From positions 3,944,130-4,008,129 of the forward strand of contig KV748177.1 in assembly GCA_001692895.1 (NCBI GenBank): 64,000 nucleotides of DNA, read 5' to 3'. The DNA comes from Cenococcum geophilum 1.58 (taxonomy: Eukaryota; Ascomycota; Dothideomycetes; Gloniales; Gloniaceae). The notes below the pieces were generated by a model. It was not told the DNA's origin, ran no database searches, and saw only the letters and a list, made by a program, of their open reading frames with translations. Shown here one piece after another: positions 7,961 through 42,774 of the stretch. The position numbers were made by a program, and so were the translations under genes. Position 1 is the first letter of the stretch. Every line of letters begins with the position of its first letter.

Positions 7961-8150
7961 AACTTTAACCGCCGGTTAAAGTTATTTAATTAGTTAGATT
8001 CTTGCCAAGAGCGCTACGCCTAATTAATTTAGGTAGTGGTATAGAGTTCTGCCAACGCTATTTGTTAAGCTAGCTAATTAGGATTTTCTATCCCCAGGAT
8101 AAAAAATCGCCATTAGCTCGGCTAAGAGCGGTAAGCGGAACTAACATCTT
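7961..8150 (+). repeat. Hairpin-bearing 3' module, Copia A copy
   Basis: An inverted repeat at 7961-7983 has 11-bp arms AACTTTAACCG and CGGTTAAAGTT around one base, followed by a block containing TTAATTAGTTAGATT. A second hairpin at 8081-8110 has decayed arms GGATTTTCTAT...and...AAAAATCGC. Downstream is GCGGTAAGCGGAACTAACAT. Related sequences lie in the same position in Copia C and in chromoviruses F and F2; Copia B keeps the second hairpin only. It ends about 135 bp before the 3' LTR. Confidence 0.75.
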
Positions 8151-8285
8151 CGCACGAACCCGTATATCTACCTACGCTACCTCTTCCCCTTTATTTCTTC
8201 TTCTTTTTCTCCTTAGCTTTGTATCTTTATATAGTAGTAATCTATAAGTATATATAGATGGCAACTATAAAAGAAGAGTTGCTAG

Positions 8286-8458
8286 TGTTGGGAATGAGGT
8301 AAGCGGTCGTTATATGTCGTCACGTGTCGCCGCGGCACTAGTGTGGTGAGGAACCTTAGGTTTCTTACCCACCCCCTAATTCTAAACAATAAGCTTTATA
8401 ACTAACATTTACTATGTCTACTCAAGTAGCATTGGTGAGTTACCCTATAACACTAACA
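8286..8458 (+). repeat. 3' LTR of Copia A
   Basis: It begins TGTTGGGAATGAGG and ends CACTAACA, and is 173 bp like its partner at 2300. All differences from the partner are C/T or G/A. A short purine-rich run (AAAAGAAGAG) lies just upstream and could be the polypurine tract. Confidence 0.92.
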
Positions 8459-8463
8459 GTAAT

Positions 8464-8960
8464 AATATATTAAAAAATTCCTAAGGAGATCTTTTACTTA
8501 TAGAAGCTTTTCCGGCTAGGATAAGCTCTTATTAAAAATATAAACGAAGTACTTTCCCTTATAACGCACTATTATGAATATTTTAGCTTTAGTTAGACCG
8601 CTAAGCTTATTAGCTTTTTTTTAAATAATGTACTGCTTTGTCTACTAAACCTAAGTTATTACTATTTTTCTAGAGTTTGTGCGTAGACTTTACCCTTATT
8701 TAATAGAGTTGTTTTAGTCCTAGGTCTTATTCTATCTTCTTTAGAAGTATTACCTATTAGAGATCTATTAGGGCCCTGTTTATCCAATATAATATTACTA
8801 TAGCTTAACTATTTTAGTATTAGCTATAGGGTTATTTTTAGGGTATTATATTATTGTATAGAAGTTCTAGTTACCTTGCCTTTTAGAAAGAATAGAATTT
8901 ACTTAATAGGCGACGCCTATAAAGAACCTTTAAGGGGTATAGAATAAGATATGCTAATAG
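8464..8960 (-). pseudogene. Unassigned decayed frame
   Basis: One minus-strand frame reads about 140 codons with only TAA/TAG stops and contains readable runs such as LDKQGPNRSLIGNTSKEDR. I recognise no family. In RIP-mutated DNA such frames can arise from real genes because Gln and Trp codons become stops, so it may be a dead gene copy, but chance cannot be excluded. Confidence 0.25.
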
Positions 8961-9560
8961 GTAACAATTTTAGTGACATTTTAAGAAGCGAAGAATTTGT
9001 TAAATTAATGGCATGCTTTCTCTTTTATCTTTTAGACTATAGAGTAGTATAATCCGGCATTTAAGGATCCTTTATAGGCTTATATACTATTTTATCAAGT
9101 TTAGGTAGGTTACTAAAGAATTATAAGAGCTTACTATATATTCTAAACTTATAAAAGACATATAAGGGAAAAGAGTAAAGATTAGAATAAAGAGTTTACA
9201 AATTAGAATATAAGGACTATTAATAACTACTACTTATATCTTGTACGCGTAGAATAAATTTAGAAATCTTAAATTAGATTTATACTTAGCGCGTACTATA
9301 GCGTCAGCGGGAATAATAAGTAGTTAATGGTGGTATGCTAAGGACGTGCCGCCTAAAGCTATAGCGCTTAAGGAATCTTAATTTTAATTTATGCTAATAT
9401 AAATTTATTCTCTAGAAAAATTAACCCTTAGTTTTAAAGGATATAATAGGTTCTTTAATTAAACTATAGTAATTGCCCTAGCTAGATTTTCCACTTTAGT
9501 AGTAAGTATTCTTACCGCTTAAGTATAACTACTTACGGTCCTAATAAATAGTTATAAAGG
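8961..9560. other. No gene recognised
   Basis: TA-rich sequence upstream of the F-box/ankyrin remnant. No LTR, TIR or protein family block was seen. It may include the former promoter of that gene. Confidence 0.4.
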
Positions 9561-10329
9561 ATATTACTGCTTAATCTGCCGAATGAAATATTATTATTAA
9601 TAGCCAAGAACCTATAAGTGGAGGGAGATATTAACGCTTTTACCTAGATAAATAACTGCCTTTATAGTATTTTAAATTCTTACCTTTATTACCATAACGT
9701 TAAATGGGAGGATAGTATAGTATTAATATAGGCTGTAAAATAAGGACAAGATATAACTGCTTAAAAATCTCTTAATGCTGCCAAAATTAGAGTAGTGACT
9801 TAATATTAATACTATAGGCGTGCGGATTTATTATAGGTAGTAAGAAACGGACATGAATTAGTAGTACGGCTATTACTTAGAAGTAGACTTAGTAGTCTTA
9901 ACCTAAAGGACTTTTCCTATAAGCTATTATACGCTATAAGGTTTAGGCGGACGGTAGTAGTATAGCTACTTTTAGAAAGTGTTAATATAAACTATAAGTA
10001 AGAAAACGGCCAGATACTACTATTATTAGCCGTAGAAAAGAGGTATAAAGATATAGTTTAACTACTTCTAGAATATAAAAATGTTTATATTAATATAAGA
10101 GACTGCTTTAGTCAGACACTACTATTATAGGCTATTAATTATAAGTATAATATAGTAGTATAATTTTTAGTTAAGTATAGGGGTGTTAATATTAACTTAA
10201 GGGACTCCTTAAGTAGAATGCTATTATCTATAGCTAAAGTATATAGGGATGCTATAATAGTTTAACTGCTTTTAGAGTGCGAAAGTAATGGTCTAAAATT
10301 TATAGACTAGTGTAGTGGTATAAGCAGTC
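9561..10329 (+). pseudogene. RIP-killed F-box/ankyrin-repeat gene
   Basis: A single frame of about 256 codons reads through without a frame change. Its first codon is ATA at 9561, likely a former ATG because the F-box starts at once: LLNLPNEILLLIAKNL, then DINAFT and the NVKWED stretch (residues about 2-55). From about residue 60 ankyrin-type repeats follow: RNGHELVVRLLLR, LLLAVEKRYKDIV, NYKYNIVV and VYRDAIIV, with about five helices-plus-loop units and the loop spacing of about 33 residues. About a dozen internal stops are all TAA or TAG at Gln positions (for example before LLLE). Family members are adaptors of SCF ubiquitin ligases, with ankyrin repeats choosing the target. It is a dead copy. 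It lies on the same strand as the kinase remnant 650 bp downstream. Confidence 0.75.
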
Positions 10330-10981
10330 CTTTAATTTAATATTAAAGGATAAGTAAAGATTAATTTAGAGGTAGTCTAACTCTAGTATATAGATTAATT
10401 AGTAGGTTTATAGTTCTTAATAATATAGTAGATATAAAATTTTATAGATTGGCTAACTCTTCTTTCTGCTAATTAATGTAATTGTTTTCTGTATACCTTA
10501 ACCTTTTAGAGATCTACTTCCTTTTTATATTGGTAAGTTCTTATTATATACTAGACCCGGCTTTATATTTAGCTATAGTAATTATATAGTTAGTAGTATA
10601 GCCTAGTATATTTAATAACTATAGCCTTAGCTAGTATATAGCTATATTTAGTAATAATTTTTAGTTATAGAAAATGCGCTATAATAGAATAAGCTAGAAG
10701 TGGAACCTAAAGCTAAAAAAAATCCCTAGGCTAAAAAGAAGGGCACACTATAATTATTGCCGTCTTTTTCACTAGAAGTTATTACCCCTTTTTATATTTA
10801 TCTTATTATAGAGTATAGGGTTAGTGTATCTGCTATAAAGACTAATCTTATTTAAAAATAGTGTCTAAAATATAGGGCGAATAATAGATTAGTTAGCTAG
10901 ACACCGGCCCCTTTAAAGCTCTTTATATATTTAATATTAACTATTACTTTAACACTTATAGACCTTATTATAGTACTACCC
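10330..10981 (-). pseudogene. Unassigned decayed frame between two gene remnants
   Basis: About 10450-10890 reads on the minus strand for some 140 codons with only TAA/TAG stops (a readable run is SEKDGNNYSVPFFLA). No family is recognised. Alternatively this is the spacer and promoter of the kinase remnant. The rest of the interval shows nothing. Confidence 0.2.
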
Positions 10982-13226: not shown

Positions 13227-13384
13227 TGTGAAGGCTCAGTCAAAAGAACAAGAATCTATTGGTAGCCAGTAAACGAGAATTCTAAGACGAGGTCTGGAAG
13301 AAGGTCGAGGAAAGGACACGTCTATATACATGGCGCCAAGGCTCGGCCGAGCCCCTGACTAGGGTCTATATCAGTGCCGTAACA
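13227..13384 (+). repeat. Solo LTR, 158 bp, little RIP
   Basis: The segment starts TGTGAAGGCTCAG and ends GTGCCGTAACA. It is flanked by GCTTA (13222-13226) and GCTTT (13385-13389), a near-perfect 5-bp duplication. Its base composition is clearly richer in G, C and CpA than the flanks, so it stands out as an island. It is unrelated to the LTRs of the other families here. The internal part of the source element is absent, as after LTR-LTR recombination. The strand is arbitrary. Confidence 0.6.
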
Positions 13385-17899: not shown

Positions 17900-20860
17900 A
17901 CTTTTGAAATTTTTATATAGTAGCTATACTTTATCTCCCTCCTTAAGATCTAGTCCCTTAGATCTCTTAACATTATAGTATCCTTTTATTCTTTACTATA
18001 CTACCTTAGCTGTTTCTATAAGGTTTATATAAAGATTTATTTAAGTCTTTATTCTCTACTTAGCTATACTACTTATCTTCTTTACTTAATATAGCAAAAG
18101 CAATATTCTTAGCTTATATCTATAGTTCGCCTTAAATAGTAAAGTACCTATTCCTTTCTATGGTATTATATTATATATAAACTATATAACTAGTAATAGT
18201 AATACCTAATTATTCTATATATAATTAATATAGTGCTTTAGATACTGTTCTAGGGTCTAGTTTAATCTTTCTATTTAACTATCTATCTGCGAATAATATA
18301 TAGTAGAAGTTACTGCTTATACTTCCTATTCCACTAAGAATACCTTCTAAAATGCTACTATGAATCTTAAATCTCTGTCCGATATAATTTTACTTAGTGC
18401 TCTATATCTTATAAACACTTCTTTAATATAGATTCTAGCGACATCTTCTGCTAAGTTTTCTTCTATATATACTATAAAGTATCCCCACTTTATAAACTTA
18501 TCTACTATTACTAAGATTATATTATAATCTTACCCTATAATAGGATCTCTTAATTTTAATAACTTAATAATAAAGTCCTATAATATAACCTCCTATAGTC
18601 TCTCTAGTATTTTAATAGGTTATAGCCCTTTATATAGCTTATGCCTTATTAATTTATTCCTTTAGTAATTTAGATATTCCTTAATAACCTTCCTAGCTAT
18701 TTTTTAGATTCTATTAATAATATACTCCTCTTAGAGTCTTAGCACTAAGCCTATAACTCCGTTGTGTCCTTAAGTTAGTCCCTTATAGAAATCTTTTATA
18801 AAGTTCTCTACTATGCTTCTTAGGATGTACTTCGCTTCTTAATTTTTATATATATCCGTCTATAGATCTTCTAGCTATACTTCTAGAATTCTTTATACCT
18901 AAAAGCTTTCTAGTATCTCGTAGACCTTTCCTAACTTATCTTCTTAAGTTACTATAATTTTTAGATAATTGTACCTAATTAGTCTATCTATATCTTTTCG
19001 CAGTAAAGCCCCTAATAGCTTTTTATTATTTTATAGTTTAGCCTTTTAACTTAACGCGTCAGCTTGTAAGTTATCTATGCCCTTAGTATACTAAATCTTA
19101 AAATAGTATTTTATAAGCATCTCTGCCCATCTAACCTATCTTTAGTTAAGTTCCTTTATTATTAGGAATCCTATTAGGTTNTTATANTNNNTNTTAACTA
19201 TAAATAGTTTNTCTATNCCTTATAAGAATGCTNTTTATTTCTTTAGTACTGTAACTATACCTAATAACTCCTTATTATAGATATTATAGTTTAGTTCTAG
19301 TAGTATTATCTTCTAACTATAGTATACTACTAGGTGCCATTTATTTAGATGCTTTTATATAAAATATACCCCTAGTATAAAGTCTAATATATCTATTTCT
19401 ATAACCGTTTTTAGTCCTAGTTAATAGATCTTAAGAACTAGCTCCTAGGTAAACAACCTCTTAACTTTTCTAAATAGTTTTTATTACTCCTTTCCCTATA
19501 CCTATAGTTCTTCTTTCTTTATTAATTGCGTAAATAGTTTAATATTCTTTAACTATTGCGCTATAAACCTTNTANAGTAATTATAAAANCCTANNAATAA
19601 TCNTAACTATATAANATTCTCTAGNTCNTACNAATTTACTATAGCCTTAATCTTCTTTAGATCTATACTAAGTTAGCCTAGTTTAATAATAAATTTAACA
19701 AAATTAGTCTTCCTTGTAAAGAACTTGCATTTCTTAATTACTACTAGCATCTATTCTTCTTATAGTTTCTTTAAAACCCATTTAACGTGTTCTCCATATT
19801 CTTCCTTAGTTATTAAGTAGATAATAATATTGTTAAAATATACTATAACAAATTCATCTAAGTATTCTCCTAATATATTATTAACCCGCTTCTAAAACGT
19901 TACTAGTACGTTTATAAGCCCGAATTATATAACTAATAGTTTATATAATCCTTCCTTTAACCTAAAGGCTACTTTCTATTTATTGCCTTCCTTAATTCTA
20001 ATCTAATGGTACGCCTATCTTAGATCTATCTTCGTAAAGATTTGCGTATTACCTATCCTATTTTAGATTTCGCTAATTAAGGGTAAAGGATATCTATCCT
20101 TTCTAGTAATGCTGTTTAACTATCTATAGTTAATATACAGCCTTAGTTTGCTATTTTTCTTTAGTATAAATAGTACTAAATAACCCGCTAATGACTGCAA
20201 TAGTCTGATGTATCCTTTTTATAAGTTCTTTTAGATAAACTCTTTTAATACTCTACCTTCCTCTTTAGTAAGCTTATAGATTAAAAAAAACCTTAAACTT
20301 ATTCCTAGTTCTAATTCTATCTTATAGTCCTATACTATATATTCTAACAGCTTCTTACTTTCTAGTAACTAAAGTTTCTTACCGTACTTATAGTATCTCT
20401 TTAGTATATAGCTTAGCCCTTTTTCTATTTCTTTATAGGTTGCTCCTACCTAGCACCATACTAACCTAGCCTATTATCGCATCTTATAGCGTTAAGTATC
20501 CTTAATATTAACCTAACCTATAACCTAATTAATCCTTAAATTATATTCCTATAACTAAGGCATTCCTAACACTACCTTATTATTCCCTAATAGTAATATA
20601 TTTAAAGACATCTTGATTTATCTCCCTTTAATAGTTAGCTAAATAGGTCATATTTTAAGATTAATAATACCTCCTCTATAGGCTATCGGATCTCCTAAAA
20701 TTATTACTAATAGGTAAAAACATTCCTTTTTCCTATATAGTAATCCTATTCTTTTAACTACTACTAGTAAGATATGGTTCCTTATTGCTCCACTATCTAT
20801 TAATACCTTAAACTGTTAATCTTACCACTTTACTTATAAATTTAGGTGTTAACCTTAAAT
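17900..20860 (-). pseudogene. Chromovirus D pol remnant (PR-RT-RH-INT)
   Basis: Recognised from protease (VLIDSGAIRNH near 20820), the reverse transcriptase blocks FTKIDLR (about 20015-20040) and the YxDD-type block near 19835, and a well-kept integrase core (VIVDKFIKWGYF near 18500, then KIISDRDLRF near 18375 and the STAYYPQ-type block near 18300). The order RT before INT places it in Ty3/Gypsy. It is interrupted many times. Confidence 0.82.
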
Positions 20861-23945: not shown

Positions 23946-23985
23946 ATTATTTAACTTCTTAAAACCGTAACCATAGTAGTAATTA

Positions 23986-25373: not shown

Positions 25374-26539
25374 TGTTACCTATAAAGGAAGCATCCATTT
25401 CCTAATATAGATTTACTCTTATAAATATATCTAACTATATAACTTAGCTACCCCTTATTCTATAGTTTAACTAATTATAGTACCTTTTATACTTTTACTA
25501 CTAGTCTATTTATATATCTCTTTAGTAGTGCTACTACTACTAATATAAGGTCCGTAATACTATTCCCCTCCTTTTTATCTTTATTTTTAAAGATATCTAA
25601 TATCTCTAAGTCGTTTATTAAAGGTATAGCATTCCTATCTTTAATTTAATAACTTTTATTATTTCAAATACCTTCTATTAGATCTTTTATAACGTACTTA
25701 ATAAGCGAGTCGGCTATGCAAGCGAGTCGGCCACCTCAAAACTTACCAAAAATTGGAAAAATCGCATTTTATATCTCGACAACTACTAAATAATAATTAA
25801 TGCAAATTTAATAGCGGCCTATTAATGTAATAACTAACTTATATTAGAAGTATTGGATATTATATATAAGCGGAAGTAGGTTAAATAGAAAAGTGGGGGC
25901 GGAAATACTTTACTTTTTCTATTTAACCTACTTCCGCTTATATATGATTTCCAATACTTCTAATATAAGTTAGTTATTACATTAATAGGCCGCTATTAAA
26001 TTTGCATTAATTATTATTTAGTGGTTGTTAAGATATAAAATGCGATTTTTCCAATTTTTGGTGAGTTTTGAGGTGGCCGACTCGCTTATATAGCCGACTC
26101 GCTTATTAAGTACGTTATCTAAGTATTATACTTATAGAATTTTAACAATTCTTTTACTAGGTAAAATTATATCTCCTTATTCTTATTATATAGAGAAGAA
26201 GTTAGTATATATTATAATTACGGCTTTATTTAGTTACAAACCTTCTTTTTATGCTAAGTATACGCGAGCGAATATACAATTGTCTTATAATATTTAATCT
26301 GTCTCTAACGCTAAGTATATATATCTTATTAATCTTTAAAGTCCCTAACTTTTTTATCTAATCTATTATAGGGTCCTATATTTAATTTACTACTATAAAG
26401 CTTAATAAAGAGCTCTTACTAGCCCTAGATAAACTTTATTTTTTTATAAAGTAAAGTAAAAGATTATAAAAGCTTAGTAATAGGCTATTAAGGCTTACCT
26501 AGCTATATCTATTTAGCTACTCCGCCTTAAAAAGGGTTA
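25374..26539 (-). mobile_element. Chromovirus E, left (3') part
   Basis: A Ty3/Gypsy fossil related to D but with a different LTR. Its 3' LTR ends at about 25559 (CCGTAATA before internal sequence that aligns with D from 16797). The LTR's left edge is not resolved; TGTTACC at 25374 is a candidate. A hairpin MITE sits at 25690-26117, and the element is cut at 26539 by chromovirus F. It resumes at 38484. Heavily decayed. Confidence 0.6.
25690..26117. mobile_element. Hairpin MITE, pogo/Tc1-like, TA target
   Basis: Two arms of about 200 bp form an almost perfect inverted repeat around a spacer of about 22 bp (25892-25913). The ends read TA then ACGTACTTAATAAGCGAG on the left and the mirror image on the right, so the element proper is 25692-26115 flanked by TA. 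Each arm holds two copies of AGCGAGTCGGC. There is no coding capacity. The arms differ at only a few, mostly transition, positions. TA flanks and the lack of a gene fit a non-autonomous Tc1/mariner (pogo-type) element. Confidence 0.82.
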
Positions 26540-26844
26540 TGTAACGGGACTAGCCCAGTTATAGTAGGAATGTCTCGGTAAAACACTTAATAGATAAATT
26601 TCGACGCTTTAACCAAATTCTGCTAGATTAATTAAATTTTACTATAGTTTATTAAAGACCGCGTGTGTATATACGAACGCATTAACTACTAAGCCCCTAA
26701 CTATTTAATTATATAATTCTCTTATTATTCCTTTCTCTTTTTTATATAATGTATTATTCTTAGCAAGAGCTATATACCCTTAGATTTAGATAGAATTTAT
26801 ATTATTTCTTTAAATCTTCCCTAAAGCCTCTCCGCGCCCTTATA
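26540..26844 (+). repeat. 5' LTR of chromovirus F
   Basis: 305 bp from TGTAACGGGACTAGCC to CGCGCCCTTATA. It shares no obvious sequence with the D-family LTR beyond the first bases. Inverted copies occur at 41854-42139. Confidence 0.88.
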
Positions 26845-27019
26845 TTACGTTATATTAAAATAACTACTATTAAAATAGTAAACGAACTTAAACCTACTAT
26901 ATTAACTATAAGCATTATAACCCTAGTTAGGGAATAGTTAACTATAATATAATAGTCCTTTCTAGCTGCTTTAGCCTAATAGTAAGTAACATTAAAAGCT
27001 TAGTATTAGTAATTAATAG

Positions 27020-27185
27020 TGTTGGTCACATAGGGTAACTCACCAATAACGACTACTCGAGTAGGTTACAGTGATGTTGGTTAATAAAGCTTTTTGATTA
27101 AAATGAGGAAGGGCGAGGAGCTTAAGGCTCCTCGCCACGCTAGTGCCGCGGCGACACGTAACGACCGCTTGCCTCATTCCCGACA
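27020..27185 (-). repeat. 3' LTR of Copia B
   Basis: 166 bp; on the plus strand TGTTGGTCACATAGG to CATTCCCGACA. It carries an internal inverted repeat GGCGAGGAGC...GCTCCTCGCC, which is also present in copy C but lost or replaced in copy A. Confidence 0.92.
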
Positions 27186-27359
27186 CTAGCAACTCTTCTT
27201 TTATAGTTGCCATCTATATACAACTACTGCTTGACTAGCGTAACAAATATCAATCCTCCTTACTTACTATTGCTATCGTAATATAAGTCTCGCTATCCTA
27301 AAATTTGCCTCTTAGCACATGGTGCTTTCTTGCTAAGGAGTCATTAGTGAATATTATAT

Positions 27360-27480
27360 TAGGGTTGTTAGGGCCGCCAAGGCGCTAGCTGTAAGCAAGC
27401 TAATAGCGATTTTCTATACCGGGTATAGAAAATCCTAATTGGCTAGTTAAAATTAGGGTCTGTAGAGCGTCATACTCTTA
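27360..27480 (-). repeat. Hairpin-bearing 3' module, Copia B copy
   Basis: The hairpin at 27408-27434 has perfect arms GATTTTCTATACC and GGTATAGAAAATC around one base, within the flanking words AGCTAATAGC and CCTAATTGGCTAG. The first inverted repeat of the module (AACTTTAACCG arms) is missing here. Confidence 0.75.
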
Positions 27481-27499
27481 CTTCCTTTTAACCTAACCT

Positions 27500-30400
27500 T
27501 TAACTTATACGCGTAAAGTATTTATATTAATAAACGTTTCTAGAGCCTTATTTAGGTTTGCCTTTATTATTACATCTACTAGGTTATCTTAACTGTTAAT
27601 CTATTAAATCTTAAAGAGTTCTCACCGTTTGTAGGATTAATAAAGTGCTATAATATCGATTATAAGGCGCTTCTCCTTTATAGTACTAAGCTTAACTAAG
27701 CACTTATAGAGGGAGTATAAGTCAGTATACACAATTATAGGAATAACGGGAAGTTTAAGTCAATCTATAATTATCTTTAGGGTAGTTCCAATTGTAATTA
27801 CTATATTAACTCCGCTAACCATTCTATATATCTCTAACGCTAGAATACTTCGAGTAATATGCTTACTCTTAGTTAAGCTCTAATAAATAAGATTACTATA
27901 GATCGTAAAGTTATTCTCTTTAGTAGATTCGTTCGCGATAATAATTTTATATCCTAGTTAAGAGCTAAAATCTTTATTATTTACGAACGATCTATTAATA
28001 AATATAAAGAGCTTAGCGGTGGGAAGATTAATAGGCACGTAGAGTAGTCCCCGGTCGAGATAGTTTATTTACTAGGAGAGACGCTTATTTAGGGTAAGGA
28101 CGTTATCCTTAGTTAGTTCCTAGTGTTAAGCGGTAATAGAGAGATTAAATAAAGCCTTAGGTTGATAAATAGAAGCAATATAAGCTCTATAAGCGCGTTA
28201 CTCTACATATCCTTATTTTAGAGAATTAATATTAATAACGTTAATCTTCTTACTTTAACCCTTCTGGCACAAAGCAATAGAATCCTTATTTAGGGAGAGG
28301 ATATATTTATTAAAGAGTAATAGTGTTGTTAAATTAAGCTTTTCCTTTAGCTTTACTATAAGATTTACCTTTACTAGCTTGTCTTCTTTAAGAGCTAAGA
28401 ATCGGTTATCTCCTAAAATAATTATATCGTTAATTTATATGCTAATAATTCTAAATAGAGTTCCTGTAGTTATAATAAGGAAGCATGGATTAAATATAGA
28501 AGTAGTTATTAAAAGCTTCTCTTTATAGTACTTGCTATAGGTAGCCCACTAGTAAGTTCCTACCTCTGCAATTCTATATAATGGCTTAAGCATAACTATA
28601 ATCGTATCTTCGGAGTATTAGTGGCGAATTTACTCTAAAAGGTATGCTAATATTAAGCGCTAAAGGTGCGTCTTTAATTGGGTGTAGGCCTAAGTAATAT
28701 CTTATAAATAGACTGCTATTCTATTCTTTATTAGGGAGGGAGCTAGTGTAATAATAACTTACTAACTGGCTTGTTAAATCGTGGGAGATTATATAAGAAT
28801 TACCTCCTTACTATTATTATTATAGCCTTAGATAATAAGCCTTGATTTCTTAAATAGGGCATTAGTAGCTTTACCTTTAATCTTATTAACTATTCTTAAC
28901 TTAAAGATGCGAACTTTATTAAACTTAGTAGGGTTATACTTCTTAAATTTAAAGACCCCTCTTATAATAAGATTATTAATCTCCTGCTTATCGGATACTT
29001 AGAAAGGAGCTCCTGGAGTTATAATACGACCTTCCTTTTAGAGCTATTTTACAAGTTCGAAGTTAGCCTTCTCCTTAGCTGTTATAAAGGCCATTAATAG
29101 CTTAACTTTATTCTCGATAGCGGCAACAAATTGCTCTTTAAAATTAATAAGATGTTAGCAATTTTGTGATTCCTTTAGGCGACCTCTACCGCGTTATAGT
29201 TGCGGCGTATCTACTACAATTATATTAGGATTATGGTCGCCTTCTAGAGCACGTTAATCATGGCTCTCCTCTAGGGCATCTTCTATAGTATCCTATAAAG
29301 GCTTAAAACTGTTATCTTTATAGTAAGGCTTAATAACAGTTAAATGGAATTAAGTGGGTCTATAAGGCATCTAAATAGTATAAGTTTAACTATTAATTGT
29401 AATAAGTTAATATAGGCCTAACTATCCTCCCTTTTTACGCTATACGCGTACCTTAGACTAAAGTGGCAGATTAAGCGTAGTTAAGGTATTTGGGCCATTT
29501 CTTATTCCTAGTACGTTGTTGACCTAGCGTATAGCGTAGAGACGTCGTACCTCCTTTGTTGCCTTGTAAATAGCCTTAGCTTATTATATAATGGAGGGAG
29601 ATAGTAGAGAATTTTTAGTTATTTAAGGGTAGGCGCTAAAGACTAGCAATATAGGTATGAGTCTATCTAGGCCAGTGGAATTATTAATAGCTTTAATAGC
29701 TATTTGCAAGGTAAGTTTTTTACTAGCGTCCTCTAGTTTTAAAGAGATAATCTTATATACGCGGCGTAATGGTATATAATATCGTTCTACTTTTCTAATA
29801 CTATTATGTGCCTTAATAGGGACTTCCTTAACCTCAATTACCATTACCTTTATCTATTATTAAAACTCTATAGATAAGAAGTTCTTTTCTATATTATAGA
29901 TAATTTAATTAGGGGGTCTTAGGTAGATATCGATCTAGTATAATAAAGGGTATCCTATATATTCTTAGCTAATATATCCTATATATTCCTAGCTAATATA
30001 TCCTTTAAGAATCGTGCGGCTTAGAAGGAGGTTAAGAAGTTAATAACTTGGAGTACTAGCTTGCCGCTAAAATATATAACGTTAATAATGATATAGAAGT
30101 TAAAGTCGTAGTTATCTTTAAAGGTAAACTTAAATCGGCTAGGGGACTTCTGGTTTATTTAGCATTAATAGTAGTACTTTATAAGATGCTTAATTACCTT
30201 AACCTTAACTTTATGGCCTACCCGCTAAAGAACCCTAAGTAATTAGTAAACGGATAGGTGGCTAAAATAACGGTATAGTTAACGTAACTCTAACTTAGTT
30301 AAATGGCTCTAAGCAATACTCTTTTCTAGTTAATAAAGAAGTAACTAGAGGTAACCCTACTTGCGTATAACGGGCACCTAATTATCTCCCTAAATGAGTA

Positions 30401-30760
30401 TATTCTTAAGGTTATTAAGCTTAACGCCTAATTTATCTATATCTCTAATATAAAATAGAAATGGGGTGTTTATAGAAATAACGTAAAAGGTAATATACCC
30501 TAAGGGGGTTTAGACCCTAATTGTGCTAATAAAGATTATAGTACCCTTGCTAAAACGAATCGTGTATTAGCCTGCCGTTAAATAGTTAATCTAAACAGAG
30601 CTATTAAGCTGCTAAAGGGCTCAAACTTAAGGTTCTCCTACTATAGATACTCCTACGGCTTTAGTATCTGGTATAATACTATAGAAGACGTTCGCTAAGT
30701 ATCTGTTATTAAAGGAGAACGCAGAACTCTCCTTTGGCTTATTAAAGATATCTAACTTTA
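27500..30760 (-). pseudogene. Copia B pol remnant (PR-INT-RT-RH)
   Basis: It matches copy A block by block. The integrase C-terminal region keeps HNSIRKVERYYIPLRR (near 29760-29810). Integrase lies upstream of the reverse transcriptase in the sense direction, as in Copia. Interrupted many times. Confidence 0.8.
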
Positions 30761-32902
30761 TAGTAAAATGGAGCGTAGATTAGTTATTAAGAATAGTAAT
30801 GGTTTATATACCATCTACCTTACTATACTTAGTAAAGTATTGGTTAGGTAAGTACTCCTCAATTTCTATATCTATAAGGAGCTATTTAGCCTTATTAACC
30901 TTACCCTTAAGATCTTCTACGCCTTTATATTAAACTAGGAAGCTTTAAAAGTAGGCCATAGTAACTTTATAATTTTTAACGTTTCTTACACTCTAGCGGA
31001 ACTTATTATATACCTCCTTTTGTTTATTAAGAGAATGCCTAATTAACTAGCAATTCGGTTTCTTATAAATATAGCACTTCTTCTAGTAATTACTTTAAAA
31101 TAAACCTCTATAAGGACCTCCACCTTTACCTTATAGTTATTAATTATACCCTCTACTATATTGCCTACCCTAGCCACTATATATTTGATTAGTCTAGTTA
31201 TAATTATATTAGTTAGGCGGGTTAATTAAAGTAGGTTAGAGTTAGGTGTTAAATTACTATACTTCTTAAGAGCGTAGAGCGGTGCTAATAAAAAATCTTA
31301 ATTAAGTATATACTCCTTTATAAGTATTTATAGGATTAAAGAGAGTAAGGTTATATTCTTTAATACCTTAACATACGCTAATAACTTAATTACGTAGGCT
31401 AAAGTCCTCTTAATATAATTTAGATAAACTATACTAAATCGTCTAAAGTTAATTAAAGAGCTTTTAAAGATAATTAAGCCGAGGGATACCTAGGTTTATA
31501 GTAATAATCCTTAGGAAAGTAGTCTCTCTCCATTCTAACATATACTGCTACTTATTCTCTTCTGTTTTAAAGTGGCATCTTAACTTATATATCATGCGGT
31601 TAAAATTATATCCTTTTCCTACCAAATAATTATAATAAAAGGTACTAGCTTGGCCCTTAAGCATAACGGAATAGGCGTTATGGTATTAATTAGACTCTAT
31701 TCCTACCTTCTAGCAATAGTTATAGAAGATACGTAGTTTCGAATTAAGAATATCGTATAATTCCCTGCTAAACTTCTTCTCCTAATCTAAATAGAGCTTT
31801 GTAAGCTCTATAAGCAATTTTAAACTACCTCCAATTTAAGATTAAGATAGAGGAGGTAGGAGTTGCATTACAGGCTATAGTAGGGACGTAGGTCTAGTCG
31901 GTAGAGTCTAAAGGTTAGTAAATCGCGAAGCAAGGGGATCTTGTGCTTGCTCGTGTTAAGAGGCAGTAGTTAAAATTATAGGTTAAATTAGTGGATTCTA
32001 GGGAACTAAAAATAGAGGTAGAGGCGATAGATACAGAACGGAAGAACTTATGCCTAGAGCAATAGAATTAGAACGCGTCTCTTATAGTATATTACTTAGA
32101 TTCCATCGTAAGTTAAGCTTCCTTATAGTGCGTAGTTAGTGCTCAATCTCTTATATAGTTTATTTGTGCTCTTCTTTTACGTTAAGAACCTACTCCTAAA
32201 TATTATCTCTAATAGTACCCCCGTCCTTAGGGACAAATACTCTATTCTCCCAAAGGAAGTTATAGAAGTCCTATACAATATCCTTATTTACGGGGGCCTA
32301 TATTTCCTTTATCTATCTAATAAAGTCCTCCTTTATACATTCCCATAGCGCGGTATTTTTATATTCACTATCCTTATAATATGCTATATAGTGTAATAAA
32401 AATCTATTTAAGTCTTATTCATTAGCGTTTGCAAGGTCAATTATAGCTTTATTCTATATCTTTAGGTTAATGTCTTCCTCATACTTCTTTAGGTAGGTTA
32501 ACGCCATAGTAGGTATAGAATTAACGGGGTATCGTACGTCAAAGGTAGGTAGGATTTTCGGTTTTATAGGATCTCATAGGTTTGCTGTCAAAAGGTAGGC
32601 AATTTAAGATGTTGTTCGACGCGTTTTAGACGTTAACTTAGGACCTTAGGTTTAGTAACACTTCTGACCTAAAGTACTCAACTAAATCTTCGTAAACGCG
32701 GTTGTTCTATATAATAGACGCAACTTAGTATCTCCTAGTACTTAGTGATACTTCTATTACTAGTTTTCTATAAGTCTAAGGTAGCACGGTATCGCCGGGA
32801 TCCATTCCATATAAGCGTATATAGCACCCCTACACAAGACTGTCTCTTCTATTCAAAAACCTAGCTGCTCTATAGTTAACTATGTATTTAACCACTAATC
32901 AG

Positions 32903-33068
32903 TGTTGGTTACACAGGGTGACTCACCAATAATGACTACTTGAGTAGGTTACAGTGATGTTGGTTAATAAAGCTTTTTGATTGGAATGAGGAAGGGCGAG
33001 GAGCTTAAGGCTCCTCGCCACGCTAGTGCCGCGGCGACACGTGACGACCGCTTGCCTCATTCCCGATA
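32903..33068 (-). repeat. 5' LTR of Copia B
   Basis: 166 bp; on the plus strand TGTTGGTTACACAGG to CATTCCCGATA. The last triplet is a RIP form of ACA. Confidence 0.92.
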
Positions 33069-33073
33069 AATAG

Positions 33074-34100: not shown

Positions 34101-34199
34101 CCTTAAAATAAGAAGTGAAAAAATATAAGTATCTAGGCTCTTTTAGTGTTAATATATAATATAACTCCCTTAATATACTTAGTAAAATTTAAATACTTA

Positions 34200-37100
34200 G
34201 AAAATAAAAGGAAGTATAAATTCTTATAGGTAGTAGAGCTACTAGTATAGGCTTTATTAATATAAACTACGCAAAAACTTAACGCTTAAATTTAAAAAAA
34301 ACTTAATAAGCCCTAAGGCCTATAAGGCTTTAATAGTAAGCCTTTAATATATGGCGAATTAACGCACTACGCTTTTATAAAGATGTAGATAAGCAAATAC
34401 CTTAAATATATTTCCCTATTTATAATACCATTAAAGTATTATAAGGTAATACTTAGATATAAATAGCTAAAATAATATAACCCTTTAATTAGCTAGGTTA
34501 AAGAAATACTAAAATTCCGTATAACTTACTACTAAATTTATTACTTAAAATACTACTTACCTTATAAATATGCATACGACTATTTAAATATAATATAATA
34601 TAAATTACCCTTACTATAAACTTTAAACTAATATAATAATTACGGTAAAGAATATAAAGATAATATATTTAAACTCCTTAAAATTTATATAGTATAAGCC
34701 GCACCCTTTTATTTATTAGTAAGAAAATAAGACTATAAGATCTTTACTATAACACTAAAAGATATTAAGAAGGCGTTAGAACTAAAGCAATATATTAACC
34801 CCTAACCCCTTATACCTAAAGAATATTATAATCTAACTAATACGTTTAAGAAACAATTTATAAACTAACTACCCCTATATTAAAATAAGCATAATTTTAA
34901 AATAAAACTTAAACCTAGTATAACGCTAAAGTTTGGCCTATTACACGGTATATTATAAGAAGAGCTACTTATAATATAATAATACCTTAAAGAGCACCTA
35001 AAGAAAGGATTTATTCGCCCTAGTTAATTACTATTTATCTTACTTATACTATTTATTAAGAAACTTAGAGGAGGCTTAAGGTTCTATATTAATTATTAAG
35101 CCCTAAATATAATTATAATTTAAAACTAATATCTAATTTCTCTACTTAAAGAAACGCTTAACTATTTAGTAAAAGTATAATACTTTATAAAGCTTAACGT
35201 AGTTACTACCTTTAATTAGATCTGTGTTTATAAAGGAGATAAATAGTATATAGCTTTCTATATATAATAGGGACTTTTTAAATACCTAGTAATACTATTT
35301 AGTATAAAAAACGGTCCTAGTATATTTTAGTAATACGTTAATAATATACTTCGCGAATTTATTAATATATTTATTACCGCGTATATTAATAATATCTTAA
35401 TTTATTTATCTTTACTTTCTAAGTATTAGAAGCACGTTTAAATAGTCCTTAAACGCCTATAAGACGCGGGCTTATAATGCGATATTAAGAAATGCAAGTT
35501 CTATGCGTTTAAAGTTATATACTTAGGCCTAATTATATCCTATAACGGAATTAAAATAAACCCTAAGAAAATTAATATAATTATAAACTAGGAAAGTCCT
35601 AGTAGTATATAAGATATTTAAGGATTTCTAAGATTTACAAATTTTTATTATTAATTTATTAATTACTTTTTAAAAATTATTTAGCTATTAGTAAACTTAA
35701 TAAGGAAAAATATAAGATTTAAATAGATTACTAAATATAAATAAGCGTTTAATAACCTAAAATATTGTTTTATAACTGCTCTAATTTTTACCTACTTTAA
35801 TTTAGATCTTAAATATATTATTAAAACAAACTCGTCTAATTATATACTAGAAGAAGTATTATTATAATATAATAAGAACGGCAAGCTATACTTAGTAGCC
35901 TTTCTCTCCTAGAAACTTACCCCTACTAAATTAAACTATAAGATATATAATGAACTACTTATAATTATTAAATACTTTAAATAATGGCGCCTAGAACTTA
36001 AAGGATTATTATTCCTAATATATATATTAACGGACTATAAAAACCTATAGTACCTTATAACTACAAAGCAATTAATATAGCGCAAAATTTATTAGGCTAA
36101 ATACCTTTTATAATTTAACTTTAAGATTATATACTAACCTAGTAAACTTAATTAAAAGCCTATCTTATTAATATAATAATTATAGGACTTATTTATAAAT
36201 GCCTTTAACAAACGAATTATAAATTCTACTACCCTTTAAACGCCTTAAGAAACTATAGCCTATATTTTTAAATATGGAGCTTAATAAAAATAAATTAGAA
36301 ATTAATAAGTAGGATATAAAAATTAATAAATTAATAGAGTATAAATATAAGAATAACCCTTAGATAGTAAATATAATAAAAGTAATTTAAATAGAGAAAC
36401 GGTAATATAAGGATATTATACTCACTAAATGCGAAATCTGTTATAATTGGTTATACTATTAATAGAAGATAGGAATCCTGAATTCTAAACCCTTATAATT
36501 TAAGATACTTAAATTTATATATAATTCCCCTATAGTAGGGCATCCTAGCTATATAAAGACTTATAAAATTATCTAATAAATATATTACTAGCTTATAATA
36601 TATAACTATATATAAAAATACGTTTAAGTATATAGAATATGCGTATATAGGAAGACCTCTTATATAAAGAAGTAAGGAGTACTTTAACTATTGCCAATTC
36701 CAATGCAAAGATAGCGAGATATTTTAATTAACTTTATAGTTAACCTGCCTAATAGTAATAGGTTTATAAAAATGCAATATATAATTCCTATAGACTTAAT
36801 TAATATAATATTAGTAGCTAAATGTTTTATTAAGTATATCTTTAAGCTATATAGACTTCCTGGTTTAATAATATTTAACTATAAAAGCTAGTTTATTTTA
36901 GATTTCTAGTAAGCCCAATATAAATAATTAAATATATAAACATAACTCTTAACTATATTTTATTTAGAGATAAATAGTTAAACTAAAATTATAAACGCGA
37001 TAATAGAATAATACCTATAAATATATTACTCCTACCTATAAGATAACTAGGAAAAGTAGCTACCTTTAGCTAAGTTTACTATAAATAATATAAGAAATAA

Positions 37101-37250
37101 ATTAATAGACGTAACGCCGTTCTACGCAACCTACAGATAAAACCCTTAACTTAGATTTAAACTATAACCTAAAATTAATATAATAGGACCTATAATTAAG
37201 AGGATTTAACTAATTAATATATATAACTTTATTAATTAAATAAAGTAGTT
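34200..37250 (+). pseudogene. Chromovirus F pol remnant (PR-RT-RH-INT)
   Basis: The reverse transcriptase is clear from FIKLNVVTTFN (about 35190) through NNILREFINIFITAYINNILIYLS (about 35335-35405), where the YxDD box reads YINN. RNase H follows, then integrase with its zinc-binding part near 36530 and core near 36800. Interrupted many times. Confidence 0.82.
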
Positions 37251-37589
37251 AACGGAACTATTATAAAGTAAATTAGCGTACGCTTAAACAGTATAAGAAT
37301 AGTATATAAATAAAGAATAAGCTCCTATATAGGACTTTAAGGGAGGTAATATAGTTTACCTAAATATATAAAACCTAAAGACTTAATAACCCTTAAAGAA
37401 ACTAAACTAGAAGTTTATAAGCCTATACTAAATTAAGAAGAAACTAAGCCTATACGCTTATAAGCTTAAATTATTAACTAAAATAAAAATATATTTAACG
37501 TTTTATATAAACTTACTGTAACCCTTAAAAGGTAAACCTATAACTTATAAAGTACTACTACTACCTCCCGTAATTGTTAATAACGGTAA

Positions 37590-37780
37590 TAGTTTTTACT
37601 TTATTAACTTAATTAATAATATATAATTAAAATCATAGTTTAAATAATTTAAACTTCTTATTAAATAAAAAAGATATAAGATATAAACCTAAAACCTTAT
37701 AAGCAAATTAAGACTAATATACCTTCCTTAGTAAAAGAATTCTATAAAGACTATCCTTTACGGCCTACTTTAGCTAGATA
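37590..37780 (+). pseudogene. Chromodomain remnant of chromovirus F
   Basis: The plus strand reads NSFYFINLINN, then a QFKLLIK block and later EFYKDYPLRPTLA, the core and tail of a chromodomain as in many fungal chromoviruses. This places F, like D, among chromodomain-carrying Gypsy elements that favour heterochromatin. Confidence 0.65.
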
Positions 37781-37916
37781 GATATAATATAAAAGTAAAT
37801 AATTACTACTTAATATAAATATATAAAACACAATAGTAGAAAGCTTAAAATTAAAAAGAACTTAAAATATATTATAACGTTTATAATACAATTACATAAC
37901 ATATAAGATATTAAGA

Positions 37917-38070
37917 AACTTTAACTACCGGTTAAAGTTATCTAATTAGTTAGATTTGCCTTACTAAGACCTACTATAAAGATATTAGTTCTGCTTACCG
38001 CATTAACTAAGCTAATAACGATTTTCTATTCCGGGAATAGAAAATCCTAATTAGCCTATTTAATAATAGA
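37917..38070 (+). repeat. Hairpin-bearing 3' module, chromovirus F copy
   Basis: The inverted repeat at 37917-37939 has arms AACTTTAACTA and CCGGTTAAAGTT (one RIP change), followed by ATCTAATTAGTTAGATT. The hairpin at 38020-38046 has arms GATTTTCTATTCC and GGAATAGAAAATC. Words around it (AGTTCTGCTTACCGC, CCTAATTAGCC) are shared with Copia A, but there the second half lies in the opposite direction relative to the sense strand. Confidence 0.75.
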
Positions 38071-38178
38071 ATTAATAAAATCCTATACTACTACCTAACG
38101 CAAAAATATAACATATAATAAGTTATAAGTCTTAACTAAAATTAAATTATTTAGACCTTTAGCTAAAAGTGGGGGTAC

Positions 38179-38483
38179 TATAATAGGACTAGCCTAGTTA
38201 TAGTAGGAATATCTTAATAAAATACTTAATAGATAAATTCCGACGCTTTAACCAAATTCTACTAAATTAATTAAATTTTACTAAAGTCCGTTAAAGACCG
38301 CATGTATATATACGCACGCATTAACCACTAAGCCCCTAACTATTTAATTATATAATTCTCTTATTATTCCTTTCTCTTTCTTACGCAATGTCTTGTTCTT
38401 AGCGAGAGCTATGTACCCTTAGATTTAGATAGAATTTATATTATTCCTTTAAATCTTCCCTAAAGCTTCTCCGCGCCCTTACA
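38179..38483 (+). repeat. 3' LTR of chromovirus F
   Basis: 305 bp, from TATAATAGGACTAGCC (RIP form of TGTAACGG...) to CGCGCCCTTACA, the same length as its partner at 26540. Confidence 0.88.
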
Positions 38484-41400
38484 GTTTATAAAAAGGTGCG
38501 CTTTAAGGAGTTCCGTTTTATAAAGTAAGGTCTCTATAGGCTTAAGGCTAAAAAGGCTAAAAAGGATTCTAATTAAGATAAGGTAGAAATAACTAATACG
38601 CCAGCGGTAGATCCCTTAGATAATTTAGCTTATCTATTACCCTTAACTAATCCCTTTATCTTTAGCTCCTTCTTAATATTACCTAACTTGTTCTTTTTTA
38701 ATACTTCTATACCTTTCCTATAGTGTTTTTTTAAGTTTTATAGTAGTTTTTAGGTAGTCTTATTATAGCCTATCTACTTTACTTTATACTATATTTTATT
38801 ATTAATGTCCTTATAACTAATAGTCTTTAAAACCTGCTATTTATCTTCCTTTTATCCACTATACATGTCTACTTTATAAATTTGCGGCTCTACGTCTCTA
38901 TACGCTAGCTTTAGTATTATAATATACTATATAAAGTAGATTTTTATTTTCGCTAATAAGTTAAGTCTGTATATAACTTCTAAAATCTTAGCTATAACTT
39001 TTAATAGTCCTAGTCTAACGTGGTTTAACTTCTTACTTAGTTATTAACTTATAAATTTTTTATATAATAGCTATACTTTATCCCCCTCCTTAAGATCTAG
39101 TCCCTTAGATCTCTTAGTATTATAGTACTTCTTTATATTTTTATACTAATTTTACTATAAAATAAAGGTCCTTATAAAGGTTTATTAAAGTCTTTATTTT
39201 CTATTTTACTATTCCACTTATTTTCTTTACTTATTTTAGTAATAGCAATATTTTAGGCCTATGCCTATAATTTACCTAAAATAGTAATATCTTCATACCT
39301 TCCTATAGTATCGCATTATATATAAACTATATAACTAGTAGTAATAATACCTAATTATTCTGCGCGTAATTAATATAATATCTTAGATACTGCTCTAGAG
39401 TCTAATTTAATCTTTCTGTTTATTTATTTATTTGTAGATAATATAAAGTTACTACTTTAACTTCTTACTCCGCTAAGAATACTTCCTAAAATACTATTAT
39501 AAATCTTAGATCTCTATCTAATATAATCTTACTTAGTACTCTATACAATATAAACACTTCTTTAATATAAATTCTAGTAATATCCTCTGCTAAAATTTCT
39601 TCTATATATACTATAAAGTAGCCCTATTTAGTTAACTTATCTACTATTATAAGGATTATATTATACTTCTATCCGGTAATAGGATTTCTTAACTTTAACA
39701 ACTTTATAATAAAGTTCTATAATATTATCTCCTATAGACGTTCTAGTACATTAATAGGCTATAGCTTTTTATACGGCTTATACCTCGTCGGCTTATTTCT
39801 TTAGCAATCTAAATACTTTTTTATAACTTTTCTTACTAAGCCCTAGATTTTATAAATAATATATTCTTCTTAAAGTCTTCATACTAATCCTATTGCTCTA
39901 TTATATCCCTATATTATTTCCTTATAAAAATCTTTAATAAATTCTTCTACTATTCCCCTTAGGATATATATATTTATTCTTTACTTATACTTGTCCATTT
40001 CTAAGTCCTTAAATTATACTTCTTAAATCCTTTTTATTTAATTACTCTCTAGTAGCTCGTACTCTTAAATTACTATAATCTTAAGATAACTATACCTAAT
40101 TAATCTATTACTATCTCTGTGTAGTATTGCTCCTAATAGCTTCTTATTATTTTTTAGTTTAGCTTTTCTGCTTAATATATCTACTCTTATATTTTTAGTG
40201 CCTTTAGTATACTAAATTTTAAAATAGTATTCTATAAGTATTTCTGCCTATCTAACATACCTTTAGTTAAGTTCTTTAATTTATCTTAACTATAAATAGT
40301 TTTTTTATACCTTATAAGAAAGCTCTTTATTTTTTAAGTGCTATAACTATATCTAATAACTCCTTATTATAGATGTTGTAGTTTAATTCTAGTAGTGTTA
40401 ATTTTTAACTATAGTATACTATTAGATGCTATGCATTCCTATACTTTAATAGTAAATATGCTCTTAGTATAAAGTCTAATATATCTATTTCTATAACTGT
40501 CTCTAGTCCTAGTTAATAGATTTTGAGGATTAATTCCTAGGTAAATAACTCCTTAAGTTCCTTAAATAACTTCTTTTATTTATTTCCCTAAACCTATAGG
40601 TCCTCTTTCTTTAAAGGCCTTATAAAGGGTTTAATATTCTTTAACTATTATGCTATAAACCTCCTATAGTAGTTATAAAATCCTAAAATAACCTTAATTG
40701 CGTTACATTCTCTAGTTCTTACTAACTTACTATAGCTTTAATCTTCTTTAGGTCTATATTAATATAACTTAATTTAATAATAAATTTAATAAATTCTGTC
40801 TTTCTTATAAAGAACTTATATTTCTTAATTGCTACTAAGATCTATTCTTTTTATAGTCTCTTTAAAACTTATTTAATATATTCTCTATATTCTTTCTTAG
40901 TTATTAAGTAGATAATAATAATATTAAGGTGTTCTCCTAATATACTATTAATTTACTTTTAGAACGTTACTAGTGCGTTTATAAGCCCAAATTATATAAC
41001 TAATAGTTTATATAGTCCTTTCTTTAACCTAAAGGTTGCCTTCTATTTATTACCTTTCTTAATTCTAATCTAATAGTACGCCTATCTCAGATCTATCTTT
41101 ATAAAGATTTACGCATTACCTATTTAATCCTAAATTTCGCTAATTAAAGGTAAAGGATATCTATCCTTTCTAATAATACTATTTAACTATCTATAGTCGA
41201 TATATAGCCTAAGTTTTCCGTTCTTCTTTAGTACGAATAGTACTAGATATCCTATTAATAACTGCAATAGTCTAATATATCCCTTTTATAGGTTTTCTTA
41301 AATAAACTCTTCTTTAGTTAGCTTATAAATTAGAAAAAACCTTAAACTTATTTCTAGTTTTAATTCTATTTTATAGTCTTATACTATATACTTTAACAGC
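38484..41400 (-). mobile_element. Chromovirus E, right part (pol)
   Basis: It continues E from 26539. It aligns with D along its length: chromodomain near 38745-38860, integrase about 39050-40000, RNase H and reverse transcriptase about 40100-41400. It stops abruptly at 41400 where a LINE tail begins. Compared with D it has more changes and several gaps. Decayed; the 5' half of E is not in the window or has been lost. Confidence 0.75.
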
Positions 41401-41556
41401 TTTTTTTTATCCATTGTATTATACTACGTATAATACTACGCATGCAGCCTCTAGGCTATGGCGCTATAGTCCTATATATATAAATCCATCTAAGGCGGCT
41501 TAATATGCATTAGTGTTATAAGACACCCCTATAATACCTTATATACGTCTACCTGT
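41401..41556 (-). mobile_element. LINE 3' end (5'-truncated copy)
   Basis: The plus strand shows an oligo-T run (about 41402-41410) followed by ATCCATTGTATTATACTACG, the reverse complement of the 3' end of the LINE at 55778-57882. Similarity continues through GGCTATGGCGCTATAG to about 41555 and then fades. A short 3' fragment with a tail is typical of 5' truncation during target-primed reverse transcription. No clear target duplication was found. Confidence 0.75.
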
Positions 41557-41853
41557 TTCCACTAACTTAGCAACTAAAGATTAACTACAAGACGGCAATC
41601 TAATAGTAATCTGCGGCAATCTAATAGCAACCTACCGCATTCTGCTATATTCCACTAAGTTTTACTAAGTTTTACTAAGTTTTACTAAATCCTGCTAAGT
41701 TCTACTAGGACTATTACCTAAATCCTATTCTGCTNNNTNTANNTATTAACTAAGTAACTAAGTCTATAATATATACCCTTTCTTTCTATTTTCTTACCTT
41801 CTTTCCTTATATAACGTCTTAACCTCCTTATACAGTTTATATATATAGCTTAA
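41557..41853. repeat. Spacer with 10-bp tandem repeat
   Basis: No gene. About 41640-41710 holds roughly six units of a 10-bp repeat, CTAAGTTTTA and variants. A short run of N at 41735-41744 marks an uncertain base call. The interval could be further LINE sequence or the pre-insertion flank of F2. Confidence 0.5.
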
Positions 41854-42139
41854 TATAAGGGCGCGAAGAGACTTTGGGGAAGATTTAAAGGAATAATATA
41901 AATTCTATCTAAATCTAAGGGTATATAGCTCTCGCTAAGAACAAGACGTTGCGTAAAGAAGAGAAAGGAATAACGAGAGAATTATGTAATTAAATAGTTA
42001 GGGGCTTGGTGGTCAATATATATATATATATACACGCGGTCTTTAACAGACTTTAGTAAAATTTAATTAAAGCGTCGGAATTTATCTGTTAAGTATTTCA
42101 CCAAGATATTCCTACTATAACTAGGCTAGTCCCGTTATA
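41854..42139 (-). repeat. 3' LTR of chromovirus F2
   Basis: 286 bp; on the plus strand TATAAGGGCGCG to GTCCCGTTATA. It is slightly shorter than the LTRs of F. A polypyrimidine run (ACCCCCCCTTTT) follows, the complement of a polypurine tract, which confirms the orientation. Confidence 0.85.
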
Positions 42140-42199
42140 GTACCCCCCCTTTTAGCCGAAGGTCCAAAACAATTCAATTTAGTCAAAACTTTATAACTT

Positions 42200-42403
42200 A
42201 TCATGTTTTTATATATTCGCGTTAGGTAGTAGTATAGAGTTCTACTAGTTCTAATCGTAAATAGACTAATTAGGATTTTCCATACCCAGTATAGAAAATT
42301 ACTATTAGCTTAATTAGGGCGTTAAGCAGAACTAATATCTTTATAGTAGGTCTTAGTAAGGCAAATCTAACTAATTAGATAACTTTAACTGGCGGTTAAA
42401 GTT
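42200..42403 (-). repeat. Hairpin-bearing 3' module, chromovirus F2 copy
   Basis: Plus strand: hairpin at 42274-42300 (arms GATTTTCCATACC / GTATAGAAAATT) and inverted repeat at 42381-42403 (AACTTTAACTG / CGGTTAAAGTT). Between them are AAGCAGAACTAATATCTT and GGTCTTAGTAAGGC. This is the clearest contiguous form of the whole module, about 200 bp. Confidence 0.75.
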
Positions 42404-42770: not shown

Positions 42771-42774
42771 TATA

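Follow-up and report, generated by a model that had tools for sequence, protein, structure and literature searches.

In the genome of the fungus Cenococcum geophilum, several retrotransposon families that are not related to one another carry, close to their 3′ end, a non-coding block of about 200 bases with two hairpins. We describe this block, the module, from a 64,000-nucleotide stretch of that genome (the window; C2:3944130-4008129 of a genome of 177.19 Mb in 162 contigs), where it occurs in long terminal repeat (LTR) elements of the Copia and of the gypsy type. The two superfamilies, Ty1/Copia and Ty3/gypsy, are regarded as lineages with separate inheritance. The shuffled and partly inverted arrangements of the module suggest that a piece of control sequence is common to, and exchanged among, families without a close relationship, and we put at about even the chance that it is a palindromic cis-module of the 3′ end, carried by LTR elements and exchanged between the superfamilies by recombination or by capture of nested LTRs.

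The module is composed of two blocks, both common to the elements Copia A and gypsy F of the window and both located upstream of the 3′ LTR. Block 1, which contains hairpin H1, has the same sense in the two elements (A 7948-8010 matches F 37904-37969), whereas block 2, of about 120 bp and containing hairpin H2, is inverted between them (A 8029-8150 matches F 38098-37979); read in the sense of the element, the order in both is pol, block 1, block 2, 3′ LTR. In Copia A, block 1 spans 7949-8010 on the plus strand, starts with AAGATCTTA and has H1 at 7961-7983, and block 2 spans 8029-8150 (plus strand), has H2 at 8082-8108 and ends with TAACATCTT. In F, block 1 (37906-37972, plus strand; H1 37917-37939) adjoins a block 2 that is inverted relative to Copia A (37973-38098, minus strand; H2 38020-38046). 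The second gypsy copy, F2, lies on the minus strand, with block 2 at 42222-42347 (plus strand; H2 42274-42300) and block 1 at 42348-42414 (minus strand; H1 42381-42403). Copia C carries a beta-armed block 2 (see below) at 51501-51605 (H2 51536-51562) and block 1 at 51619-51684 (H1 51650-51672), both on the minus strand, and Copia B a beta-armed block 2 at 27373-27477 (minus strand; H2 27408-27434). No H1 was found in Copia B, which is without about 100 bp present in Copia C, H1 included. These results bear out the original prediction as to the positions of all five segments, the restriction of Copia B to the second hairpin and the opposite sense of the second half in A and F. Of the hairpin arms that it quoted, the H1 pair is exact in A alone (F, F2 and C retain one exact arm) and the H2 pair in B alone (altered in A, F, F2 and C). 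It had noticed no such module in a further family, D, and in the D elements of the window our block scan gave a single marginal 40-bp match (19665-19704).

The Copia elements look, from their structure and sequence, like fungal GalEa elements. Copia A is a complete GalEa-type element (2300-8458, plus strand), with LTRs of 173 bp at 2300-2472 and 8286-8458 and the target duplication GTAAT on both sides. Copia B (27012-33066; 3′ LTR about 27012-27183; target duplication CTATT) and Copia C (51159-59323; 3′ LTR about 51159-51320; target duplication ATTCC) are likewise complete and of GalEa type, on the minus strand. All three have TGT...CA LTRs and a 5-bp target duplication, some LTR ends of B and C being altered by transitions. 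As described in PMC5445492, fungal GalEa elements have a Conserved Hairpin Site (CHS), at which the palindrome CTGATCAGT or CTAATTAGT immediately follows the 5′ LTR, and make up 10.4% of the Cenococcum geophilum genome of 177.57 Mb. The word CTGATCAGT is present, exact, directly after the 5′ LTR of Copia A; at this place B is one transition from CTGATCAGT and C one transition from CTAATTAGT. A scan of 30 A-family loci for the GalEa set of motifs (KSRLVI, QTDD, ADxxTK) found KSRLVI in two (L034, L049), KLRLVI in 15, QIDD in one (L048) and AD..TK in one (L035), in the expected order, yet spread over different copies; B and C yielded no instance of these motifs. The coding regions are heavily decayed. 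No stop-to-stop frame of 150 amino acids is listed in the window, and a Pfam search of pol of A to C (three frames with stops masked, and also in pieces) returned no Copia domain, so that the Copia identity of these elements rests on the CHS, the structure and a few motifs. Within Copia C lies about 2.1 kb of foreign sequence (55782-57881), about 90% identical to L089 537-2625; the copy at L089 has long open pieces and a cysteine-rich, knuckle-like stretch that we take to resemble open reading frame 1 of long interspersed nuclear elements.

F (plus strand) and F2 (minus strand) are 3′ parts of one gypsy family. F (36215-38481) comprises an integrase H2C2 region, a Tf2-1-like SH3 region, the module and a 3′ LTR running from about 38173-38179 to 38481, and its Pfam matches are below the cut-off (SH3_Tf2-1, 3.4e-6; H2C2, 6.8e-5). 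Two further gypsy families with the module, X and Y, were retrieved from the genome. The X copy at L091, X2, is complete, with LTRs at 1290-1485 and 8032-8227, ATTAT on both sides and the module at about 7784-7976; its RVT_1 (5.2e-12) and RT_RNaseH_2 (3.3e-15) domains are above the cut-off. In Y, RVT_1 (5.7e-24) and SH3_Tf2-1 (7.2e-12) are above the cut-off and Chromo (9.6e-5) is below it, and a ribonuclease H (RNase H) domain is present too. Gypsy-type integrase and reverse transcriptase/RNase H domains of this kind are marks of the Ty3/gypsy superfamily, to which F, X and Y belong as judged from their domains, with Y a chromovirus. The LTRs of F (38151-38200), X (L084) and the L103-type repeats described below (L103-L106) start, by eye, with similar TGTAACGG-like words, which suggests related LTR ends. 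A stretch at 26534-26842, about 90% identical to the F LTR, is probably a solo or partial LTR. Two tandem arrays (42759-43190 and 43519-43824) lie beside F2 and result in repetitive false reading frames; one has a 12-bp period (23 overlapping matches of a 168-nt reference). At L090 (2117-5592), a D-family stretch stops where Y starts, Y having probably inserted into D.

The similarity among these hosts is not restricted to the palindromes. Module segments were scored with both palindromes left out and compared with 1000 shuffles, with 40-bp stretches just outside the module as controls. For the four segments of A against F, the number of shuffles scoring as high was 3, 0, 0 and 0, and for A against X it likewise lay within 0 to 3, whereas the controls to the left of F (116), to the right of F (360) and to the left of X (747) were at chance level. 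Block 2 is 73-83% identical to that of A in the F loci examined, and the whole A unit, including the junction, is common to X at 74-82%, the other flanks of X being without a match to the Copia A or F of the window. A genome-wide search for the H2 core and flank with at most one mismatch gave 2,413 matches; the reversed control pattern gave none. The original prediction had set against itself the case of similarity limited to the palindromic cores, with flanks at chance level; with A against F and A against X far above the shuffles without the palindromes, that case therefore does not apply. AT-rich repeats do yield many weak palindromes, and A against C is only moderately above the shuffles once the palindromes are removed, but these comparisons and the contrast of 2,413 matches with none leave a negligible probability that we are looking at chance similarity among AT-rich palindromes degraded by repeat-induced point mutation (RIP), and for A against F and A against X the shuffle test rules it out.

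The module is a regular part of the copies scored. With queries spanning the end of pol, the module and the LTR, it was covered without a break in 40/40 places for A and in 40/40 for F, these being the best-scoring of 4,635 and 3,139 candidates, respectively. The original prediction had named presence in all copies as support for exchange; the counts given here are for best-scoring copies and are no census of A and F. In Y, the module was covered and contiguous with the element end in all 40 scored places, 36 of which reach the chromodomain region (query position at least 1450). Among 30 F loci and 30 A loci retrieved with the module as query, A as query matched block 2 in 29 of the F loci (all but L030) and, under a 60-bp filter, reported block 1 in 14, and F as query matched block 2 in all 30 A loci.

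The distribution is wider than the Copia and chromovirus F families originally proposed: at least ten repeat contexts, gypsy X, chromovirus Y and LTR interiors among them, carry block 1, block 2 or both. Further contexts are an L095-type Copia (so called from an A-like LTR start and flank; pol was not seen), L103-type LTRs and two repeats with block 1 only, L094 and L012/L016; in L094, direct repeats of some 180 bp with 75.6% similarity are separated by 4.4 kb. The L103-type repeats are called LTRs from TGTAACGG...CCCGTTACA-like ends and from one pair (L106-like), at a distance of 5.9 kb, among 40 scored places; they showed no clear target duplications. A 319-bp solo LTR at L093 (4412-4730) holds block 2 and has TTAAT on both sides; its flanks adjoin with a 5-bp overlap at 21 empty places elsewhere, and sequences related to it also occur as six pairs with a spacing of 5.6-5.9 kb. 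About 200 bp of the 3′ untranslated region (UTR) of the L095 lineage runs colinear with L103-type LTRs, and this stretch contains a further block found in Copia A as well. Capture thus also occurs, as seen in a Copia 3′ segment colinear with the LTR of another family and in a block 2 within a solo LTR. Block 1 was not found in any LTR examined, and for A, C, F and X a location of the module inside the LTR is ruled out by its position upstream of the 3′ LTR.

We sampled 21 H2 matches in 20 stretches, from the first 25 listed, for copies away from LTR elements, leaving out four (three beside block 1 pattern matches and one F copy). Their contexts were Copia of the B/C type (5), F (1), X (8), Y (3), the L093 solo LTR (1), L092 (1), L079a (1) and L086a (1); Copia A is absent from the sample, though abundant elsewhere. 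None of the 21 was shown to be the module standing alone, the possibility raised by the original prediction: 20 are in an identified repeat family, and that at L086a sits in a repeat shared with L026 and L029. The candidates L093, L092 and L079a were rejected as free-standing copies, each being part of a repeat family. At L079 (473-550 and upstream), block 2 follows what is by eye a minisatellite of about 23-bp units; both are present in 20 scored places, and the minisatellite alone in others.

The module differs among its hosts in orientation and in arms. A and X have the same arrangement, and in F block 2 is inverted. Y has this compound of block 1 and inverted block 2 too, but with pol on the other strand (the minus strand of L090); the compound has therefore been flipped as a whole relative to F, so that the compounds of F and Y have opposite orientations to pol. 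Where the strand is known, the module is located between pol and the 3′ end of the element, or within an LTR. Two arms are found to the right of H2: alpha in A, X, L093 and, in inverted form, F, and beta in B, C, the L095 type, the L103 type, L092 and L079a, with a beta-like piece of 34 bp in the X LTRs. Related GalEa-type lineages (A; B/C; L095 type) differ in their arms, and each arm is also present in other families. The A/X unit is bounded by the short inverted repeat AAGATCTTA (7949-7957) / TAACATCTT (8142-8150), its outer ends forming a 9-bp AAGATNTTA-like inverted repeat; F and Y have such an end on one outer side only. No target duplication around the module was recognised by eye.

The H2 palindrome is retained in most families. 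The pair at its tip (18:24) is Watson-Crick in 85 of 103 distinct copies, against a mean of 44.5 and a maximum of 59 in 10,000 shuffles, and all four pairs are present (C:G 59, A:T 19, G:C 4, T:A 3, other 18); the count leaves out second fetches of the same place (L001, L031, L065, L066, L089-L093) and copies past the mismatch or length limit (e.g., Copia C of the window, L008). RIP transitions cannot give the changes from C:G to A:T or G:C at the tip, and templated correction of palindromes would also retain the pairing. A 3x3 internal loop beside the H2 core is nearly constant. Invariance of A and T in a genome affected by RIP is no evidence of selection. When folded as RNA, the whole module outdoes shuffles in both A (z -3.8) and F (z -4.7); H2 alone has z of -2.8 to -5.2 in the six contexts tested other than Y, and the H1 pieces have z of -1.9 and -1.7. 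H2 of Y folds no better than shuffles, either on the strand opposite to pol (z 0.02) or on the transcript strand (three copies: z -0.73, -1.38 and 0.33), and this weakened hairpin therefore counts against selection for pairing in Y. The selected hairpin of the original prediction is thus favored by the covariation at the tip and disfavored by Y.

A hairpin that acts in the transcript through its sequence, under selection in each family, would have its analogy in retroviral nuclear export or packaging elements. The position of the module near the 3′ end, the folds of A and F and the constancy of the internal loop are what such a role would predict, but with block 2 inverted the F transcript has the complementary loop, the three Y copies in transcript sense do not outfold shuffles, and Rfam has no match (none at the gathering score for the window, none at E<=5 for 7900-8300). 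A role needing one fixed RNA strand is also disfavored because orientation is not conserved, and we regard this explanation as quite improbable. An origin from a transfer RNA (tRNA) or a short interspersed nuclear element was considered and rejected, ARAGORN having found no tRNA and Rfam nothing.

Of the three mechanisms that the original prediction offered, namely independent capture of one small element, exchange by template switching and a selected hairpin, exchange between LTR elements fits best with the shuffled arms, the 40/40 places in A and in F, and the 0/21 free-standing copies shown. The data show that the module is shared, that it is in all scored A and F copies, to which superfamilies its hosts belong, that it is inverted and differs in its arms, and that the H2 tip covaries; template switching, pausing, the direction of transfer and any function are inferred. 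The module would be a non-coding cartridge of the 3′ end, assembled from parts that can be exchanged (block 1 and its H1, block 2 and its H2, and the varied arms beside H2), which host LTR elements would carry and amplify. It may have been transferred among unrelated lineages, namely the GalEa Copia elements, gypsy F, X and Y and further LTR families, either by recombination during reverse transcription of co-packaged RNAs or by capture of nested LTR pieces. The shared hairpins would act as pause sites and as islands of homology for template switching, and switching at H2 is our proposed reason why the arms change right beside it; inversions could arise at the palindromes, at the DNA level or through aberrant strand transfer. 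As the module has no constant orientation to pol, a function, if there is one, must work both ways round; candidates near the element 3′ end are a palindromic DNA site and a hairpin that acts by its fold and not by its strand. In a stronger form, which we consider unlikely, the unrelated superfamilies would have come by exchange to share one palindromic cartridge that works in both orientations and serves them all, for example as a site of strand transfer or of recruitment to particles through which the machinery of one family could act on the RNA of another.

Two other origins compete with exchange. Miniature inverted-repeat transposable elements (MITEs) are non-coding and palindromic, with a length of about 200 bp and a short terminal inverted repeat. 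The module resembles them in being palindromic and non-coding, in its length and, as far as the A/X unit is concerned, in a short inverted repeat at its ends, and it may be, or descend from, such a small non-autonomous DNA element that was inserted independently in the 3′ regions of many LTR families and then amplified by them. The inverted repeat that bounds the A/X unit, the mostly sharp edges and the opposite orientations of the F and Y compounds to pol would fit this origin; unlike for MITEs, however, no target duplication was recognised and no free-standing copy was found in the sample, and contexts with block 1 only or block 2 only, and the arm differences, would be unexpected of one element. 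We hold this origin to be rather unlikely, if somewhat less so than the idea that the shared blocks are remnants of nested solo LTRs, block 2 having originated inside an LTR of a single family and other families having retained the solo LTRs, or pieces of them, that landed in their 3′ UTR. The solo LTR at L093 with its 21 empty places, the colinearity between the L095-type 3′ UTR and the L103-type LTRs, and the one L106-like pair among 40 scored places speak for the latter, and for the beta-armed copies repeated solo-LTR capture is well supported; as a general account it is improbable, since it suits those copies more than it does A, X, F and Y, LTR ends are absent from the A/X unit and block 1 is in no LTR examined. 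We favor a cartridge moved among LTR elements because of its 3′-end location in each family that could be placed, its presence in 40/40 scored places of both A and F, the differing arms and a sample in which no copy was shown to be free-standing.

Several points weigh against exchange between LTR elements. No exchange intermediate or breakpoint is proven, and a mobile DNA element would equally leave sharp boundaries, occur in either orientation and have many hosts. The covariation test takes no account of relatedness, and the copies picked by pattern were selected by their left arm. Without the palindromes, the similarity of A to C is weaker (74, 0, 9 and 15 of 1000 shuffles as high), and the control to the right of X is borderline (31 of 1000). 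To these we add the choice of best-scoring places for A and F, the small sample of H2 matches, the failure of the Y hairpin to outfold shuffles on either strand and the absence of Pfam Copia domains in A to C.

Comparable non-coding palindromes are known from other systems. The CHS is, in the account of PMC5445492, a palindrome or hairpin kept in GalEa, an extended version of which is common to different families of one species; it is described for GalEa and follows the 5′ LTR immediately, unlike the module, which is at the 3′ end, between pol and the 3′ LTR or inside LTRs, is about 200 bp long and is shared with Ty3/gypsy. The palindromic repeat motifs of plant Sireviruses are likewise conserved across divergent LTR elements and are presented in PMC2829016 as small boxes, most of which have CGG-CCG as their core, located upstream of the TATA box of the LTR and within one Copia genus. 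The module, in contrast, is compound, crosses superfamilies and is rearranged; rather than forming repeated LTR boxes, H2 is single in each module and outside the LTR in A, C, F and X (the TATA box was not mapped). Mitochondrial repetitive or double hairpin elements, as far as they are described, are similar in being short palindromic units dispersed over many contexts, whereas the module is nuclear and in LTR retrotransposons. Our literature search recognised no description of such a 3′ module, which does not establish its absence in print.

A non-coding unit that crosses both superfamilies, is present in every scored A and F copy, and has been inverted and given different arms would show the extent to which co-resident elements trade sequence at their 3′ ends. 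The module would also serve as a marker of interaction between families, such as co-packaging, and repeat annotation in RIP-degraded fungal genomes would be affected wherever shared modules are taken for family membership.

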